From positions 2,502,001 to 2,566,000 of the forward strand of contig OY282368.1 in assembly GCA_958295725.1 (NCBI GenBank): a stretch of DNA of 64,000 nucleotides, in the 5' to 3' direction. The notes beneath the pieces are model-generated. The model had not been told where the DNA came from, did no database searches, and saw only the letters and a list, made by a program, of their open reading frames with translations. Positions 2,901 through 19,872 of the stretch are shown in pieces. This DNA comes from an uncultured Alphaproteobacteria bacterium. Lineage in GTDB: Bacteria; Pseudomonadota; Alphaproteobacteria; UBA2966. The translations under genes and the position numbers were made by a program. Positions within the stretch are counted from its first letter, which is position 1, and each line of letters opens with the position of its first letter.

Positions 2901-4562
2901 TCAAACGCGCGACCCGCCCTTGCGATCGCGTTCCTCGAGGAGGCGCTTCGCCAGCGCCCGCGCCTCGTCCCGACCGACGATGAAACGGTCTTTCGGCAGG
3001 CGCCGGAAGACGTCGAAGGAGGCGAGAACGCGCTCTACGGGGCCGGAGAGATCCTTGACGATGCACTCGGTGTCCTTCACCCTGGCGGCGTCGACCAGCT
3101 TCTCCACGACCCGCGCGGCGCTGTCGTCCATGTAGACGGTACTGGAAAAGTCCAGGATGACCACCTCGTGGTCCTGGATGTCCATGCTGATCGCCCACAG
3201 CAGTTCGTTGGCCGACGCCATGGAGAAGTAACCGCGCAGATCCACGAAGCCGACGCGAGCCGCGAACGGATCGGCACTGGTGTCGCCCTCTTCGTCGAGG
3301 AAAAACGTCCGGTCCAGCAGCGGCACGGAGACCACGTTGTCGAATTCTACCCGCCCCACCTCGCTCGCTCGCGTCAGCACGGAGACGACCAGACCTACGG
3401 CCACGGCCGTCACCAAGTCGGTGAACACGGTGAGTGCCAGGGTGACCAGTATCACCGTGACATAATCGCGAGAGATATATGGGACGCGGCTGAGGAAATG
3501 CCAATCGACGATATCCCAACCGATCTTCATCATGATGGCGGCGAGGGCGGCGATCGGAATGGCCTCGGTAATCCCTCCGCCCTCCAGAACCAGAGCGAGC
3601 AGCATGATCGAACGCAGCGCGCCGGACACCGGGGTGCGGGCGCCGGCCCGGATATTGACGGCGGTGGTTATCAGCGACGCCGATCCGGGCAGCGTTCCCA
3701 GCAGGCCGGCGGCGATGTTGCCGAGTCCCTGGCCCACCAGCTCCCGACCGGGTTTGTGGCGGGTGAGGGTGAGGGAGTCGTGCATCTGCGACGACAGCAG
3801 GCTGTTGACGGAACTGATGAACGCGAGGATCAATGCCGGTTGTACGGCGCCGGCGAGAAAGTCCGGGGACAGCACCGGCACCTGGAGCGTGGGCAGGCCG
3901 GTCGGGAGCGCCCCGACCGTCGGCACGCCGCCCGGCAGGGCGAACGCCACCGCCGTGCCGACGACCAGGGCAACCAGGTACGCGGGCAGGAACCTGCCGA
4001 TCCGGGACGGCCACCAGATGCATACGGCAAGCGTGACCGCGCCGACGACGGCGGCGTTCGCGTCGAGGGCGGCGAACGCGCCGGGCCAGGCGCGGACGGT
4101 CTCGACCAGCCCTCCCCCCATCGTGGCGGTCGCGCCGAGCAGCGGCGAAACCTGGCCGATCATCACGACGATGCCGATGCCGGCCATGATTCCGGCGATC
4201 ACGGAATACGGCGTATGGGAAACGAAGCGGCCGACGCGCAGGGCACCCAGCGCGATCTGCATCAGGCCGGCCAGCATGACGATGGTGAAGGCCTGGGCCA
4301 GATTGCCGGCGTACTGCGTCAGGACCACGGTCATCGCGACCAGCATCGGTGCGCTGGTATCGGAGCTCTGGGCGCGCGTGCCGCCGAACACCGCTGCGAA
4401 GAAACCGATGGCGATGGTGCCGTAAAGCCCCGCCAACGGCCCCAACCCGGAGGCGACGCCGGCGGCCAGCGCCCACGGCAGCACGATCACCGTCGACGCG
4501 ACCGCGCCGGCAGCGTCCCCGGTGAGCGTTTTGAGGTCATAGGACAAGCGCACGCGCCACAA
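2901..4562 (-). CDS. SulP family inorganic anion transporter with STAS domain
   Basis: A 553-residue inner-membrane transporter of the SLC26/SulP family, which moves sulfate, bicarbonate or other small anions. Residues about 15-410 form the multi-helix membrane domain (for example AGAVASTVIVLPWALAAGVA). Residues about 430-535 form a cytoplasmic STAS domain with VVILDFSSTVYMDDSAARVV, where the family's phosphorylatable Ser/Asp loop lies. Length is typical. It stands alone and is bracketed by remnants of one IS type (2533-2668 and 4624-5048), so it may have moved as part of a composite element. The transported anion cannot be deduced. Confidence 0.92.
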   Translation of the reverse strand: MWRVRLSYDLKTLTGDAAGAVASTVIVLPWALAAGVASGLGPLAGLYGTIAIGFFAAVFGGTRAQSSDTSAPMLVAMTVVLTQYAGNLAQAFTIVMLAGLMQIALGALRVGRFVSHTPYSVIAGIMAGIGIVVMIGQVSPLLGATATMGGGLVETVRAWPGAFAALDANAAVVGAVTLAVCIWWPSRIGRFLPAYLVALVVGTAVAFALPGGVPTVGALPTGLPTLQVPVLSPDFLAGAVQPALILAFISSVNSLLSSQMHDSLTLTRHKPGRELVGQGLGNIAAGLLGTLPGSASLITTAVNIRAGARTPVSGALRSIMLLALVLEGGGITEAIPIAALAAIMMKIGWDIVDWHFLSRVPYISRDYVTVILVTLALTVFTDLVTAVAVGLVVSVLTRASEVGRVEFDNVVSVPLLDRTFFLDEEGDTSADPFAARVGFVDLRGYFSMASANELLWAISMDIQDHEVVILDFSSTVYMDDSAARVVEKLVDAARVKDTECIVKDLSGPVERVLASFDVFRRLPKDRFIVGRDEARALAKRLLEERDRKGGSRV

Positions 4563-10836: not shown

Positions 10837-12519
10837 ATGGCCTCTTACCGATACGTCTTCACGATGGTCGGCCTCGCGAAGTCCTATCCGGGCGGTCGCG
10901 AGATTCTCAAGGACATCCATCTGTCGTTTCTCCCCGGCGCTAAAATCGGCGTCCTGGGATACAACGGCGCCGGGAAATCCACCCTTCTGCGCATCATGGC
11001 CGGGGTCGAGACCGAGTTCGACGGCGAAGCCTGGGCCGCGGATGGCGCGAGGGTCGGATATCTGCCTCAGGAACCGGAGCTCGACGCGACAAAGGACGTG
11101 CTCGGCAACGTCACGGAAGGCGTGGCGGAGGCCAAGGCGTTGCTCGACCGATTCGAGGAAGTCAGCGCGCGATTCGCCGAACCTCTTGACGAGGACGAGA
11201 TGCGGGCCCTGATCGACGAACAGGGCGCGTTGCAGGAGCGGATCGAGGCTCGGGACGCTTGGGAACTCGACCGCCACATCGACATCGCGATGGACGCGCT
11301 TCGCTGTCCGCCCGGCGACGCCCGGGTGTCGACGCTCTCCGGCGGCGAGCGGCGGCGAGTCGCGCTATGTCGCCTCCTGTTGTCGCACCCCGACCTGCTG
11401 CTTCTGGACGAGCCGACCAACCATCTGGACGCGGAGTCGGTCGCCTGGCTCGAGCGCTTTCTCCATGACTATCCGGGGACCGTGGTCGCCGTCACGCATG
11501 ATCGCTATTTCCTCGACAACGTCGCCGGCTGGATCCTGGAACTGGATCGCGGCCGCGGCCTGCCCTTCGAGGGCAACTATTCGTCATGGCTCCAACGGAA
11601 GCAGGCGCGTCTCGAGCGGGAAGGCAGGCAGGAAGAGGCGCGGCGGCGCTCGCTCGCACACGAGCTCGAGTGGATTCGCCAGGCGCCCCGGGCGCGCCAA
11701 GCGAAGAGCAAGGCGCGAGTCAACGCCTACGAGGCTCTGCTCTCCGAAGAGTTCGAACGGTCCCGTGAAAAGGCCCAGATCATGATTCCCTCCGGCTCCC
11801 GTCTCGGTGATCTCGTTCTGGACGCCGAACACGTCCGCAAGGGTTTCGACGACCGCCTCTTGATCGACGACCTTTCCTTTCGCGTTCCCCCGGGGGCCAT
11901 CGTGGGAATCGTCGGGCCGAACGCGGCCGGCAAGACCACCTTGTTCCGCATGATCGTCGGCGAGGAGACAGCGGACTCCGGCAACCTGCGTCTGGGCGAC
12001 TCGGTGGTGTTGGGTTATGTCGACCAGTCCCGCGACGCGCTGGACCCGGACCGCACGGTCTGGGAGGAGGTATCCGGCGGGCTCGACGAGATCGAGTTGG
12101 GAAAACGGACGATGGCGAGTCGAGCCTACGTCGGCGCCTTCAATTTCCGTGGAGCCGACCAGCAGAAGAAGGTCGGCCAGCTCTCGGGCGGCGAGCGCAA
12201 CCGCGTCCATCTCGCGAGAATCCTCAAGTCGGGGGCGAATCTCATTTTGTTGGACGAACCGACCAACGATCTCGACGTCGATACGCTACGGGCGCTGGAG
12301 GACGCTCTCCTGGAATTCGCGGGCTGCGCGATGGTGATCAGCCATGACCGCTGGTTCCTGGACCGGACGGCCACCCACATCCTGGCGTTCGAGGGCGACA
12401 GCCGTGTCGAGTGGTTCGAGGGCAATTACGCGGCATACGAGGAAGACCGCCGCCGCCGATTCGGCGACGAGACCGCCCGGCCGCATCGCATCGGGTACAA
12501 GCCCCTGAGTCGGACGTAG
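10837..12519 (+). CDS. ettA: Energy-dependent translational throttle protein EttA
   Basis: A 560-residue ABC-F protein with two ATPase cassettes and no membrane part; EttA binds the ribosomal E site and gates the first elongation step according to the ATP/ADP ratio. The N-terminus (YRYVFTMVGLAKSYPGGREI) is the EttA signature. Walker A motifs are GYNGAGKST (near 41) and GPNAAGKTT (near 356). ABC signatures LSGGERRR and LSGGERNR and Walker B motifs LLLLDEPTNHLD and LILLDEPTNDLD are intact. The linker between cassettes is long and charged (about 240-310), as expected. Length matches the family. The start ATG is preceded by CCGGGAAAG. Confidence 0.96.
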   Translation: MASYRYVFTMVGLAKSYPGGREILKDIHLSFLPGAKIGVLGYNGAGKSTLLRIMAGVETEFDGEAWAADGARVGYLPQEPELDATKDVLGNVTEGVAEAKALLDRFEEVSARFAEPLDEDEMRALIDEQGALQERIEARDAWELDRHIDIAMDALRCPPGDARVSTLSGGERRRVALCRLLLSHPDLLLLDEPTNHLDAESVAWLERFLHDYPGTVVAVTHDRYFLDNVAGWILELDRGRGLPFEGNYSSWLQRKQARLEREGRQEEARRRSLAHELEWIRQAPRARQAKSKARVNAYEALLSEEFERSREKAQIMIPSGSRLGDLVLDAEHVRKGFDDRLLIDDLSFRVPPGAIVGIVGPNAAGKTTLFRMIVGEETADSGNLRLGDSVVLGYVDQSRDALDPDRTVWEEVSGGLDEIELGKRTMASRAYVGAFNFRGADQQKKVGQLSGGERNRVHLARILKSGANLILLDEPTNDLDVDTLRALEDALLEFAGCAMVISHDRWFLDRTATHILAFEGDSRVEWFEGNYAAYEEDRRRRFGDETARPHRIGYKPLSRT

Positions 12520-13215: not shown

Positions 13216-14028
13216 CTACTTGACGACGGACGAGGCGCGGTCGGTTTCCGACTCTTCGTCCTCGTCCCACGGAATTTCCGGGATTGGCGCGGACCGCGGG
13301 GGCCTGCCGTTGCGGATCTCGTCTTCGCGGCGTTGCCTGTAGAGGCTGCGCACGGTGGCGTAGAAGTCGATGGCGCCGCGCTCGATCTCGTCGAGGGTCT
13401 CGATGTTGCGGGAGCGGGCGTCGATGGCTTCCATGCCGGAGTGGATCCAGGGGACGGCGGCGTGTTCCGCGTCGCGCGCGTACCGGGACACGGGGTCCGC
13501 GAGTGTCTGGCCGGCGAGGCCGGCGGTGTCCCGGACCGACGACGGCCCCAGCAACGGCAGCACGAGATAGGGCCCTTCGTCGATGCCCCATACGGCCAGC
13601 GTCTGGCCCAGGTCCTCGTCGTGAAATTCGATCCCTGTAACCTCGAACAGCCCGCCGAGCCCGACGATGGTGTTCGCCATGAAACGGCCGCCGGTTTCGC
13701 CGGCGCGGTCCTTTTCCCCTTGCAGCAGGTCGTTCGCCAATATCATCGGCGACTTCAGGTTATTGAGAAAGTTCGTCACCATCGTCCGGCCGAAGTCGGG
13801 AACGACCCCACGATAGGCCCGGGCCACCGGTTCCAGCAGCACCCGGTCGACCGCGCGGTTGAATTCGAACATGGCCCGGTTGAACGGCTCCAGGGGATCG
13901 TTGATCGCCGCGAGTTCGGCCCGCGCCTCGGCGTCGTCGGCCGGCGGAATCGCGCAGGCGGTCAAGACGACGCCCGCGGCGAGCGCGGCGCCCGCCGTCC
14001 GAATCGCGAATGTACCGGTCGAAGTCAC
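13216..14028 (-). CDS. mlaA: MlaA family lipoprotein (VacJ)
   Basis: A 270-residue outer-membrane lipoprotein that removes misplaced phospholipids from the outer leaflet. The lipobox LTAC is at residues 22-25. Family blocks are INDPLEPFNRAMFEFN near 42, the GGRFMANTIVGLGGLF block near 113 and GIDEGPYLVLPLLGPSSVRD near 149. It is the upstream gene of the mlaA-mlaC pair. The C-terminal tail is acidic and Arg-rich and lies beyond the conserved domain. Confidence 0.94.
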   Translation of the reverse strand: MTSTGTFAIRTAGAALAAGVVLTACAIPPADDAEARAELAAINDPLEPFNRAMFEFNRAVDRVLLEPVARAYRGVVPDFGRTMVTNFLNNLKSPMILANDLLQGEKDRAGETGGRFMANTIVGLGGLFEVTGIEFHDEDLGQTLAVWGIDEGPYLVLPLLGPSSVRDTAGLAGQTLADPVSRYARDAEHAAVPWIHSGMEAIDARSRNIETLDEIERGAIDFYATVRSLYRQRREDEIRNGRPPRSAPIPEIPWDEDEESETDRASSVVK

Positions 14029-14186
14029 GAAACCGTCCCGCCAACCTCCGCCGTTCGACCCCCGGAGTTCGTTCGCCCGACGTCACGGCCGCACCCGGCT
14101 CCGGGGCCGTGTCAATATCATAGCTCGAGTTTGAACGCCAGGGAGGCGCGGCGGTGACAATGCACCAGCGCGTCGTGGATTTTTTA

Positions 14187-14215
14187 TTGAGAATTATATA
14201 ACGATATGTTTATAT
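14187..14215 (+). promoter_or_regulatory. Predicted sigma-70 promoter of the metF/metH operon
   Basis: TTGAGA at 14187-14192 and TTATAT at 14210-14215 are separated by 17 bases, a near-consensus housekeeping promoter in an AT-rich island of otherwise GC-rich DNA. Transcription would start near 14222, so translation cannot begin at the ATG at 14214. Confidence 0.7.
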
Positions 14216-14220
14216 GATTC
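14191..14220. promoter_or_regulatory. Palindromic operator overlapping the met promoter
   Basis: A 30-bp imperfect palindrome (24 of 30 positions match their reverse complement) with outer arms GAAT/ATTC and inner core ATATAA...TTATAT. It covers the spacer and -10 element of the promoter, so a bound regulator should block transcription. The first gene of the operon encodes an ArsR-type DNA-binding protein. The arrangement fits autoregulation like that known for SahR-type ArsR regulators of methionine-cycle genes; that match is inference. Confidence 0.75.
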
Positions 14221-14267
14221 TCGATTTGGAATTCGATCGCGTGACGCCTCGTTCCCGACACGAACCC

Positions 14268-15227
14268 ATGAATACGCTTTTGAACGCCCTGCGCGCGGCC
14301 GCCGAACCGACCCGGCTGCGCCTTCTCGCGCTCTGCGGGGAAGCCGAACTCACGGTAACCGAGCTGACCTGGATTCTGGGGCAGAGTCAGCCCCGCGTGT
14401 CGCGGCATCTCAAGGTATTGTGCGAGGCCGGGTTGCTGGACCGGTTCCGGGAAGGAACATGGGCCTTCTACAGGCAGGCCGATGCCGGAGAGCCGGGCGG
14501 GCTGGCGCGGACGCTCATGGCGCTCATCCCCCGGCATGACGCGGAGTTGGTCCGGGATTTCGAGCGGCTCGAAGCGGTCAAGGAATCGCGGGCCGTCGCC
14601 GCGGCCGCCTATTTCCGCGCGAACGCCACGCGCTGGGATGAAATTCGCTCCCTCTACGTGCCGGAGTCGGACGTCGAAACGGTTCTTCTCTCGGTGTTCG
14701 CCGGCCGGCGTATCGGCGAATTCCTGGATATCGGCACCGGAACCGGCCGGATACTGGAACTGTTCGCCGACCGGTTCCATCGCGGTATCGGCATCGACCT
14801 TTCCCACGACATGCTGGCGGTCGCGCGCGCGAACCTGGAGCGCGCGGGACACGGCCATTGCCAGGTCCGGCATGGCGACATGTATCACCTGCCCCTGTCC
14901 GGCGAGAGCGTGGACGCGGTGACGTTTCACCAAGTCCTCCACTTCGCTTCCGATCCCGCCGCGGCCATAGCCGAGGCGGCCCGGGTTCTGCGTCCCGGCG
15001 TCGGCACCGCCTTGGCCATCGTCGACTTCGCGCCGCACGAGCTCGAGTTCCTCCGCGAGGAGCACACGCATCGACGCCTCGGCTTTTCCGACGTGGAAGT
15101 CGTGGAGTGGCTGGAAGCCGCGCGCCTCGTTCCCGGCGGCCGCGTCCGGCTGGAAGGCGACCCGCTCACCGTCGTCGTCTGGGCGGCGACGAAAGTGGAC
15201 GCCGGGGAACGGCGGGCGGCGGCATGA
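14268..15227 (+). CDS. ArsR-type regulator fused to a SAM-dependent methyltransferase
   Basis: A 319-residue two-domain protein. Residues about 1-85 form an ArsR winged helix ([20 protein letters not shown], then [18 protein letters not shown]) with no metal-binding Cys cluster. Residues about 145-280 form a class I methyltransferase with motif [16 protein letters not shown]. Fusions of this type stand upstream of metF in alphaproteobacteria. A likely role is to sense SAM or SAH and repress the operon. The open frame allows an ATG at 14214, but that lies inside the -10/operator; 14268 (MNTLLNAL) is the first plausible ATG. Its stop overlaps the metF start in ATGA, implying translational coupling. 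Confidence 0.88.
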
Positions 15228-16153
15228 CGACCGACGCCGCGATCCAACCCGTGGTCGATCGGCTGAGCGCGCTCGCGCTCAGGTTCTCGGGAATGGTGAA
15301 TCTCAGGGTTTCGTTCGAGTTCTTCCCGCCGAGGACGGGGGAGATGGAACGGATGTTGTGGAAGTCGATCCCCCGGCTCGCTCCGATCGAACCGGACTTC
15401 GTGTCCGTCACCTATGGCGCGGGCGGCGGCACGCGCGACCGCACGCACGCCACGGTCCGCCGTATCCTCGAGGAGACGACCCTGACGCCCGCGGCGCACC
15501 TGACCTGCATTGCCGAGACCCGGGACGAGGTGGACGACGTCGCCCGCGCCTACCGGGAGGCGGGCGTGCGGCACATCGTGGCTCTGCGGGGAGACCCGCC
15601 GGAGCCCGGCGCGGCCTACGCGCCCCATCCGGGGGGATACCGGTACGCCGCCGACCTGGTCGAAGGCCTCAACCGGATCGCCGACTTCGATATTTCGGTC
15701 GCCGCATATCCCGAAACCCACCCCGAGGCGCCGAGCGCGGACTTCGATCTCGACAATCTCAAGCGCAAGATCGACGCGGGTGCCCGGCGCGCGATCACCC
15801 AGTTCTTCTTCGACACCGAGGTGTTCCTGCGTTTTCGGGATCGTATCCGGCGGGCGGGGGTCGACGTACCGCTGATTCCGGGAATCCTTCCGGTGACGAA
15901 CTTCGATCGGGTGGTCCACTTCGCCAGCATGTGCGGGACCGGCGTCCCCGGCTGGCTTTCGCGCCTCTTCGAGCCCCTGGGCCGGGATCCGGAGACCCGC
16001 AAGCTCGTCGCCGCCATGGTGGCGGGGGAGCAATGCCGCATTCTGGCAGGCGAAGGCGTTTCGCGCTTCCATTTCTACACGCTCAACCGGGCCGACCTGA
16101 CCTTCGCCATGTGCCACGCGCTGGGGCTGCGCGCACCCGCGGACGACGGTTAG
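15224..16153 (+). CDS. metF: 5,10-methylenetetrahydrofolate reductase
   Basis: A 309-residue FAD enzyme that makes 5-methyl-THF, the methyl donor for MetH. The N-terminal block [17 protein letters not shown] carries the catalytic Glu. [15 protein letters not shown] and the [10 protein letters not shown] block, which binds FAD and NADH, are present. [14 protein letters not shown] near 190 is also conserved. The ATG at 15224 overlaps the stop of the upstream regulator by ATGA. A longer open frame from 14858 is a shadow of the regulator gene. Only 14 bases separate it from metH. Confidence 0.96.
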
Positions 16154-16167
16154 GCGCGAGGCCGACC

Positions 16168-19100
16168 GTGCGCGATACCGTTCCGCGCTCCGACTCCTCG
16201 GAGACTCTCGAGCTCCTGCTCGACGAGAGAATCCTTCTGCTCGATGGAGCCATGGGGACGATGATCCAGGGGTACGGTCTCGGCGAGGCCGACTTCCGCG
16301 GCGAACGGTTCGCCGACCATTCCCGGGATCTCGCGGGCGACAACGACCTCCTGACTCTCACGCGGCCGGAGGTGATACGGGAAATCCACCGCGCCTTCCT
16401 GGATGCCGGAGCGGACATCGTCGAGACGAACACCTTCAACGCGACGTCGATTTCGCAAGCCGACTACGGGCTACAGCGCCTCGCCTACGAGCTCAATCGC
16501 GAGGGCGCGCGTCTCGCGCGCGACGTCGCGGACGAGGTCGCCGCGACGACCCCGGACAAGCCGCGGTTCGTCGCCGGCGTTCTCGGCCCGACCAATCGAA
16601 CGGCGTCGATCTCGCCCGACGTGAACGACCCGGGTTTCCGGAACGTTTCGTTCGATACCCTGGCGGCCGCTTATACCGAGGCGGTCCGCGGCCTGATCGA
16701 CGGCGGCGCGGACATCGTTCTGATCGAGACGATATTCGATACGTTGAATGCCAAGGCGGCCATCTACGCGGTGAGGAAGCACTTCGATACCCACGGAGTC
16801 CGGCGGCCGGTGATGATCTCCGGCACGATCACGGACGCCTCCGGGCGCACGCTCTCCGGGCAGACGGCGGAGGCGTTCTGGAATTCCGTCGCGCACGCGA
16901 GGCCGATGTCGGTCGGGTTCAACTGCGCCCTCGGCGCCGAGGCGCTGCGGCCCCATGTCCGAGAACTCGCGCGCGTCGCCGGCATCCCCGTCAGCGTGTA
17001 TCCCAACGCGGGGCTGCCGAACGAATTCGGCGGTTACGACGACACGCCGGCGTTTCTGGCCGAGCAACTCGGAGAATTCGCCGAGAGCGGGTTCGTCAAC
17101 ATCGTCGGCGGGTGCTGCGGCACCACGCCCCGCCACATCCGCGCCATCGCCGAGGCCATCGCCGACTTGCCGCCGCGCGTGCGTCCGGACGTCGAGCCTC
17201 GTTGCCGGCTCAGCGGTCTCGAGCCCCTGACGATCGGGCCGTTGACCGGTTTCGTGAACGTCGGCGAACGGACCAACGTCGCCGGGTCGGCCAAGTTCGC
17301 CGGACTCATCCGCGAGGGCGACTACGCCGCCGGGCTGGAGGTCGCGCGCCAGCAGGTGGAGAACGGCGCCCAGATCATCGACGTCAACATGGACGAGGCG
17401 ATGCTCGACTCCGAGGCCGCCATGGAGACGTTCCTGCGCCTCGTCGCCGCCGAGCCGGACATCTCGCGCGTGCCGGTCATGATCGACTCCTCGAGGTGGT
17501 CGGTCATCGAAACGGGTCTCAAGAACATCCAGGGAAAGGGGATCGTCAATTCGATCAGCCTCAAGGAGGGGGAAGCGGCGTTCATCGAACAGGCCGAGGA
17601 AATCCTGCGCCATGGCGCCGCCGTCGTCGTGATGGCGTTCGACGAGACGGGACAGGCGGACTCGCGCGAGCGCATGGTCGAGATCCTGACGCGCTCCTAC
17701 GGGATATTGACCGAAAAGGTGGGCTTCCCGCCCTGGGACGTCGTTCTCGATCCCAACGTCTTCCCCATCGCCACCGGACTGCGGGAGCACGACAACTTCT
17801 CGGTCGATTTCATCGAGGCCACGCGCATCGTCAAGGAAACATTGCCGCATGCCCTGGTTTCGGGCGGGGTCAGCAACATGTCCTTCTCGTTCCGGGGCAA
17901 CAACGCCGTTCGCGAGGCCATGCATTCGGTGTTCCTGTACCACGCGCTCGAAGCCGGCATGGACATGGGAATCGTCAACGCGGGCCAGCTCGCGGTCTAC
18001 GCCGACATTCCGGAAAGCCTTCGCGAACGCGTCGAGGATGTCGTGCAGAACCGGCGGCCGGACGCGATGGAACGGCTGCTGGCGGTCGCGGACAACGTTC
18101 GGCGCCAGCGCAGGGACCGGGGGCCCGATCTCTCGTGGCGGGAGGGTCCGGTCGAGGAACGGCTGTCCCATGCCCTCGTCGAGGGGATCGGCGATTTCGT
18201 CGTCGACGACACCGAGGAGGCGCGCCTCGCCGCGGACCGTCCCCTCGACGTCATCGAGGGACCGCTGATGAACGGCATGAACATCGTCGGCGACCTGTTC
18301 GGTTCGGGACAGATGTTCCTGCCGCAGGTCGTGAAGAGCGCCCGCGTGATGAAACAGGCCGTGGCCCACCTGATCCCGTTCCTCGATGCGGAAAAGGGGA
18401 GCGGCGGCGAGATCCTGGCCAAGGGCAAGATCGTGACCGCGACCGTGAAGGGCGACGTGCACGATATCGGCAAGAACATCGTCGGCGTGGTGCTTCAGTG
18501 CAACAACTTCGAGGTCATCGATCTCGGCGTCATGGTTCCCTACGCCAGGATACTGGAGACGGCGAAGGCGGAAGGCGCCGACATGATCGGACTCTCCGGC
18601 CTCATCACGCCCTCGCTCGGAGAGATGGAGATCGTGGCCTCGGAGATGAAGCGGGCGGGCTTCACGGCGCCGCTGCTCATCGGCGGCGCGACGACCTCCA
18701 GGGCGCACACCGCCATCAAGATCGCCCCCAACTACGACCACCTGGTCGTTCACGTGGTCGATGCCTCGCGGGCGGTGGGAGTCGCCGGCGCGTTGGTGAG
18801 CGATACCCGGCGCGACCCGTTCGTGGCGGAGATCGAACGAGAATACGCCGGTATCCGGGACGGCTACCGGGGCCGGGACCGGGACGGCCGCCAGCGCACG
18901 CTGCGGAGCGCACGCGAGGCCGGGCTGCCCATCGATTGGGTGTCGGCGGAACCCGCGAAACCGTCCTTCCTGGGGCTGAAGACGTTCGACCCTTACGATC
19001 CGGGCGATCTCGTGGACCGGATCGACTGGACGCCGTTCTTCCGCGCCTGGGAGCTCGCCGGTGCGTTTCCGAGGATACTCGACGATCCGAAGGTCGGACG

Positions 19101-19872
19101 GGCGGCCCGGGACCTCCACGACGACGCGCGGGCGATGCTGGAACGGATCGTGGCGGAGCGATGGCTGACGCCGCGCGGCGTCATCGGCTTTTTCCCGGCG
19201 AACGCCGTGGGCGACGACATCGAGGTCTACGCCGACGAATCACGCGGCGCGGCGCGCGCGCGCTTCCACTTCCTGCGCCAGCAGATGATGAAGAGCACGG
19301 ATCGGGCGAACCTCTCTCTCGCCGATTTCATCGCACCCAGGGAGACGGGCGTCGCCGACTATCTGGGCGGGTTCGCTGTCACCGCGGGGATCGGGATCGA
19401 GGCGAAGCTCGCGGAATTCGAGGCCGCGCACGACGATTACAACGGCATTCTCCTGAAGGCGCTGGCCGACCGGCTCGCCGAGGCGTTCGCCGAGCGCATG
19501 CACGAGCGCGTGCGCAAGGAGTTCTGGGGCTACGCGCCCGACGAGAACCTGGACAACGAGGCGCTGATCCGCGAGGAGTACCGGGGGATTCGGCCGGCGC
19601 CGGGGTATCCGGCCTGTCCGGACCACAGCGAGAAGTCCCTCCTGTTCGACCTTCTCGACGCGCCGCGAAACGCCGGCATCACGCTGACCGAGGGATTCGC
19701 CATGCTGCCCGCCGCGGCGGTTTCCGGGTTCTACTTCGCGCATCCCCGGTCGCGGTACTTCGGCGTAGGCAAGATCGGCCGCGATCAGGTCGAGGACTAT
19801 GCCGCCCGCAAGGGCGTCCCGTTTCCGCGGGCGGAACGCTGGCTGGCCCCGAACCTGGGGTACGAGCCGTAG
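16168..19872 (+). CDS. metH: Cobalamin-dependent methionine synthase
   Basis: A 1234-residue enzyme that transfers the methyl group of 5-methyl-THF through cobalamin to homocysteine. Domains in order: homocysteine-binding (about 15-340) with zinc ligands in FNCALGAE (near 250) and GGCCGTTP (near 314); folate-binding (about 355-620, starting [13 protein letters not shown]); cobalamin-binding cap and Rossmann domain (about 650-900) with D763-x-H765-x-x-G, where His ligates cobalt; and the SAM-binding reactivation domain (about 910-1234). Translation starts at GTG 16168; the frame remains open further upstream only as a metF shadow. Length matches E. coli MetH (about 1227). The organism therefore needs B12. 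Confidence 0.97.

Follow-up and report, generated by a model that had tools for sequence, protein, structure and literature searches.

The palindrome in front of the sahR-metF-metH operon is very probably the operator of SahR, a regulator that would repress this operon and be released by S-adenosylhomocysteine (SAH), a by-product of methylation. The operator core, a strand-neutral 20-bp palindrome (ATATAACGATATGTTTATAT, 14196..14215), was located in the window, i.e., the whole 64-kb stretch of DNA that was analysed. Downstream follows sahR (14268..15227, plus strand), coding for a protein of 319 amino acids with an ArsR-type HTH and a class I SAM methyltransferase domain. The analysis itself showed that the site exists, is conserved, is confined to regulator-bearing genomes and lies at methyl-cycle genes, and which domains make up the protein. 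SAH as ligand, the repressor sign and the release upon SAH binding were adopted from the literature. SahR would bind as a dimer to the 20-bp core, between the probable -35 and -10 elements and over them, and block the transcription of its own operon. Upon accumulation, SAH would be bound by the C-terminal methyltransferase fold and SahR would leave the DNA. The resulting rise of MetF and MetH would allow the remethylation of homocysteine and restore the SAM cycle.

Orthologues of the regulator occurred in many relatives and on 65 named contigs, most of which belong to uncultured Alphaproteobacteria. The preliminary description had staked its reading on a recurrence of the palindrome upstream of orthologous regulators, and there it is conserved: sequences with at most five mismatches to ATATAAAGATATGTTTATAT were present upstream of 60 of 62 orthologues, and shuffled controls reached five mismatches once in 310 trials. 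A symmetric position weight matrix (PWM) was built from the sites of 58 relatives, with the window and its genus left out. With 36.9 bits the core was the best site of the window, the runner-up scored 6.8 bits. In its own genome the core was the sole match at three or fewer mismatches. Near-exact sites were observed in 33 of 40 genomes with the regulator versus none of 21 genomes without it (n = 61; Fisher p ~1e-10). The 51 genomic matches were affiliated to sahR (32 matches, no more than about 150 bp upstream), ahcY (15 matches), metF or metH (2 matches), metE (1 match) and a PPK2-like gene (1 match). The genes at the matched sites are a methyl-cycle regulon. The conserved palindrome at the orthologues and at ahcY supports the proposal that a single protein may serve as sensor and as repressor of methionine synthesis.

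The PPK2-like polyphosphate kinase gene, the only one of the 51 matches away from methyl-cycle genes, had a strong SahR-type site directly upstream (34.8 bits; L138, G023:C1:2978000-2984000, site 3093-3118). Relatives of sahR with an alphaproteobacterial-type site were also present on seven contigs labelled Chloroflexi or Dehalococcoidia (L043, L053, L056, L059, L065, L068 and L091), all with sahR-metF and no metH within the stretch. These contigs are either mislabelled bins or cases of horizontal transfer.

Within the operon, the start of metF (methylenetetrahydrofolate reductase; 15224..16153, plus strand) overlaps the sahR stop codon, and metH (cobalamin-dependent methionine synthase; 16174..19872, plus strand, start approximate) follows. 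The identity of metF was based on the reading frame, tblastn comparison to relatives and the metF annotation next to the orthologues of the two rhizobia. The gene order sahR-metF-metH was kept in 51 of 63 related contigs, the pair sahR-metF in 61 of 63. A probable -35 element (TTGAGA, 14187..14192, plus strand) is separated by 17 bp from a probable -10 element (TTATAT, 14210..14215, plus strand) within the right operator half. The former is a TTGAC-like hexamer with the same offset in relatives: position -9 from the core was the commonest offset (13 of 61 relatives). TTATAT was present at the -10 place in 37 of 61. The operator thus probably sits between and over the promoter elements. The initial characterization as a near-consensus promoter is less clear, the recurring -35 offset speaks for it, but a mechanical promoter scan yielded no site with nine of twelve consensus matches. 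For sahR, the start codon ATG 14268, to which the preliminary description had moved the start, is better supported than ATG 14214. The latter falls within both the operator and the probable -10 element and would therefore be absent from any transcript starting downstream. Relatives align from the residue encoded at 14268, where an ATG is also present in the two genomes of the same genus. GTG 14241 may be an alternative start.

Beyond the intergenic region, an mlaA/vacJ-type gene is oriented divergently (13216..14028, minus strand), and ettA is located at 10837-12519. The reverse strand carries TCGAGA-17-TTATAT across the operator, and 31 of 63 relatives have mlaA upstream in the opposite orientation, as expected for a bidirectional promoter/operator that also controls mlaA. 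Such a double role is unlikely: the site persists in relatives without mlaA at this place, the outer arms of the palindrome are not conserved and the mlaA start is about 160 bp distant. The mlaA-like gene divergent from sahR represents a conserved neighbourhood with no obvious functional link.

Against the SahR reading, ahcY, a core target, is without a site in this genus, and the promoter is weak by consensus. In the window's own genome, no site was detected at ahcY or at the chromosomal metK (best PWM scores of -13.4 and -13.7). The two other genomes of the genus also lacked the ahcY site, so that none of the three has it. The remaining two genera of the family keep it (21-34 bits), as do all seven sister-family genomes where ahcY was found (21-34 bits). 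The idea that the same palindrome might recur at ahcY and metK holds for ahcY in many relatives (15 matches), but not for ahcY and the chromosomal metK of the own genome. The SahR regulon of this genus has apparently lost ahcY as a target. As a target, ahcY belongs to the regulon content that varies by genome and is not a defining feature of the SahR protein. The metK region was present twice in the window's genome (L099 on C1, L100 on C2), with 99.4 % identity over 3911 bases, and a weak SahR-like site (L100:3944-3969; 18.7 bits) lies directly beyond the end of the near-identical stretch. The second region may be a duplication or an assembly variant. The 18.7-bit candidate upstream of the qor-metK copy on C2 was not counted, as its score falls at the lowest end of those of true sites and C2 is perhaps an assembly variant.

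A change of the effector from SAH to SAM, acting as corepressor in a MetJ- or SamR-like manner, would match the loss of the ahcY target, whose site is absent from the three congeneric genomes and present in related genera. Methyltransferase folds bind SAM and SAH alike, and for SamR a response to SAM was proposed on similar grounds of regulon content. However, the protein is 60-69 % identical to family members that retained the ahcY site, and metK had no compelling site either, so that a SAM-responsive regulator appears rather improbable. We also give little credence to a broader variant, in which SahR without ahcY has become a local autoregulated switch for remethylation only in this genus, perhaps with another ligand preference and with a symmetric promoter that maybe drives mlaA as well.

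The protein itself agrees with SahR. The predicted fusion of a DNA-binding domain with a methyltransferase domain was confirmed: the ArsR-type HTH spans residues 6-72 (PF01022, 43.6 bits; NF033788, 72.6 bits) and the class I methyltransferase fold residues 153-244 (PF08241, 87.5 bits). Reference SahR also has a class I methyltransferase domain. Motif I (D-GTGTG; DIGTGTG) was almost invariant across 60 orthologues, which fits a retained binding of SAM or SAH. Among solved structures, the matches spanned one domain or the other, and no full-length relative was found. The orthologues of S. meliloti (51 % identity) and R. leguminosarum (49 % identity) both adjoin metF and ettA, an arrangement also seen here, and their sites scored 37.2 and 40.3 bits, respectively. 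Their records are annotated as ArsR family, without the name SahR. The NCBIfam model name would make the regulator a metal-responsive ArsR/SmtB protein, and the match to NF033788 exceeds the cut-off (72.6 versus 55 bits). This assignment is very improbable and was rejected: the paired cysteines of a metal site are missing in the recognition-helix region, where the counterpart of the ELCVCDL-type stretch has no cysteine, and the targets of the regulator are methyl-cycle genes.

The palindrome that had been described as 30 bp long with 24 of 30 symmetric positions is real and lies exactly at 14191-14220. Symmetry is strongest over the full imperfect palindrome at 14186..14225, on neither strand in particular, with 32 of 40 symmetric positions (ATTGAGAATTATATAACGATATGTTTATATGATTCTCGAT). 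It is the only AT-rich stretch in the intergenic region between the start of the mlaA-like gene (14028) and the sahR ATG (14268). Its outer arms GAGAAT/ATTCTC are not generally conserved and differ in both same-genus genomes; among relatives the outer symmetry was mostly near chance. Seven stretches of 30 bp with at least 24 of 30 symmetric positions occurred in the window versus two to six in Markov-resampled windows, and 7 of the 20 resampled windows contained a 40-bp stretch with 32 of 40. Symmetry was rejected as proof of function, since chance yields similar palindromes; the palindrome is significant because its 20-bp core is conserved, not because it is symmetric. A functionless chance occurrence is extremely improbable: the symmetry alone lies within chance for a 64-kb window, but the conservation of the core and its genome-wide association with the regulator refute this explanation.

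Novichkov 2014 is reportedly the original experimental paper on SahR in Proteobacteria. In the account of Leyn et al. 2014, SahR belongs to the ArsR family, responds to SAH and has a 20-bp palindromic motif; its core targets are sahR, ahcY, metH, metF and metK, and it was present in all alphaproteobacterial groups studied (PMC4239095). In Ensifer aridi, the activity of the sahR promoter increased in a sahR deletion, consistent with autorepression (PMC8877191). The system described here shares the ArsR family, the autoregulation, the targets metF and metH, ahcY in relatives, the alphaproteobacterial distribution and a 20-bp palindromic site before sahR, the published motif being compared by its description. 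It differs from the SahR regulon in the missing ahcY site of this genus, and no strong metK site was found. SamR of Xanthomonadales, with about 30 % identity to SahR and a 24-bp motif with ATC-N10-GAT, was proposed to respond to SAM from its regulon content (PMC4239095). It is likewise a SahR-like regulator adjoining metH, but occurs in another taxon, and the core consensus AYATAAAGATATCTTTATRT does not agree with its 24-bp ATC-N10-GAT motif. SAH riboswitches also exert SAH control over methyl-cycle genes, but are RNA elements, and Rfam revealed no riboswitch in the window or at ahcY. MetJ and MetR likewise control metF, metH or metE; they differ in belonging to other protein families, with the motifs AGACGTCT and ATGAA-N5-TTCAT.

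The SahR system has already been described, and the operon has to be seen as a further SahR operon, real but ordinary. It leaves the understanding of methionine control unchanged and gives an uncultured lineage of Alphaproteobacteria a well-supported regulatory annotation. It also corrects the label 'metalloregulator' that automatic annotation puts on such proteins, and points to a lineage-specific loss of ahcY from the SahR regulon.
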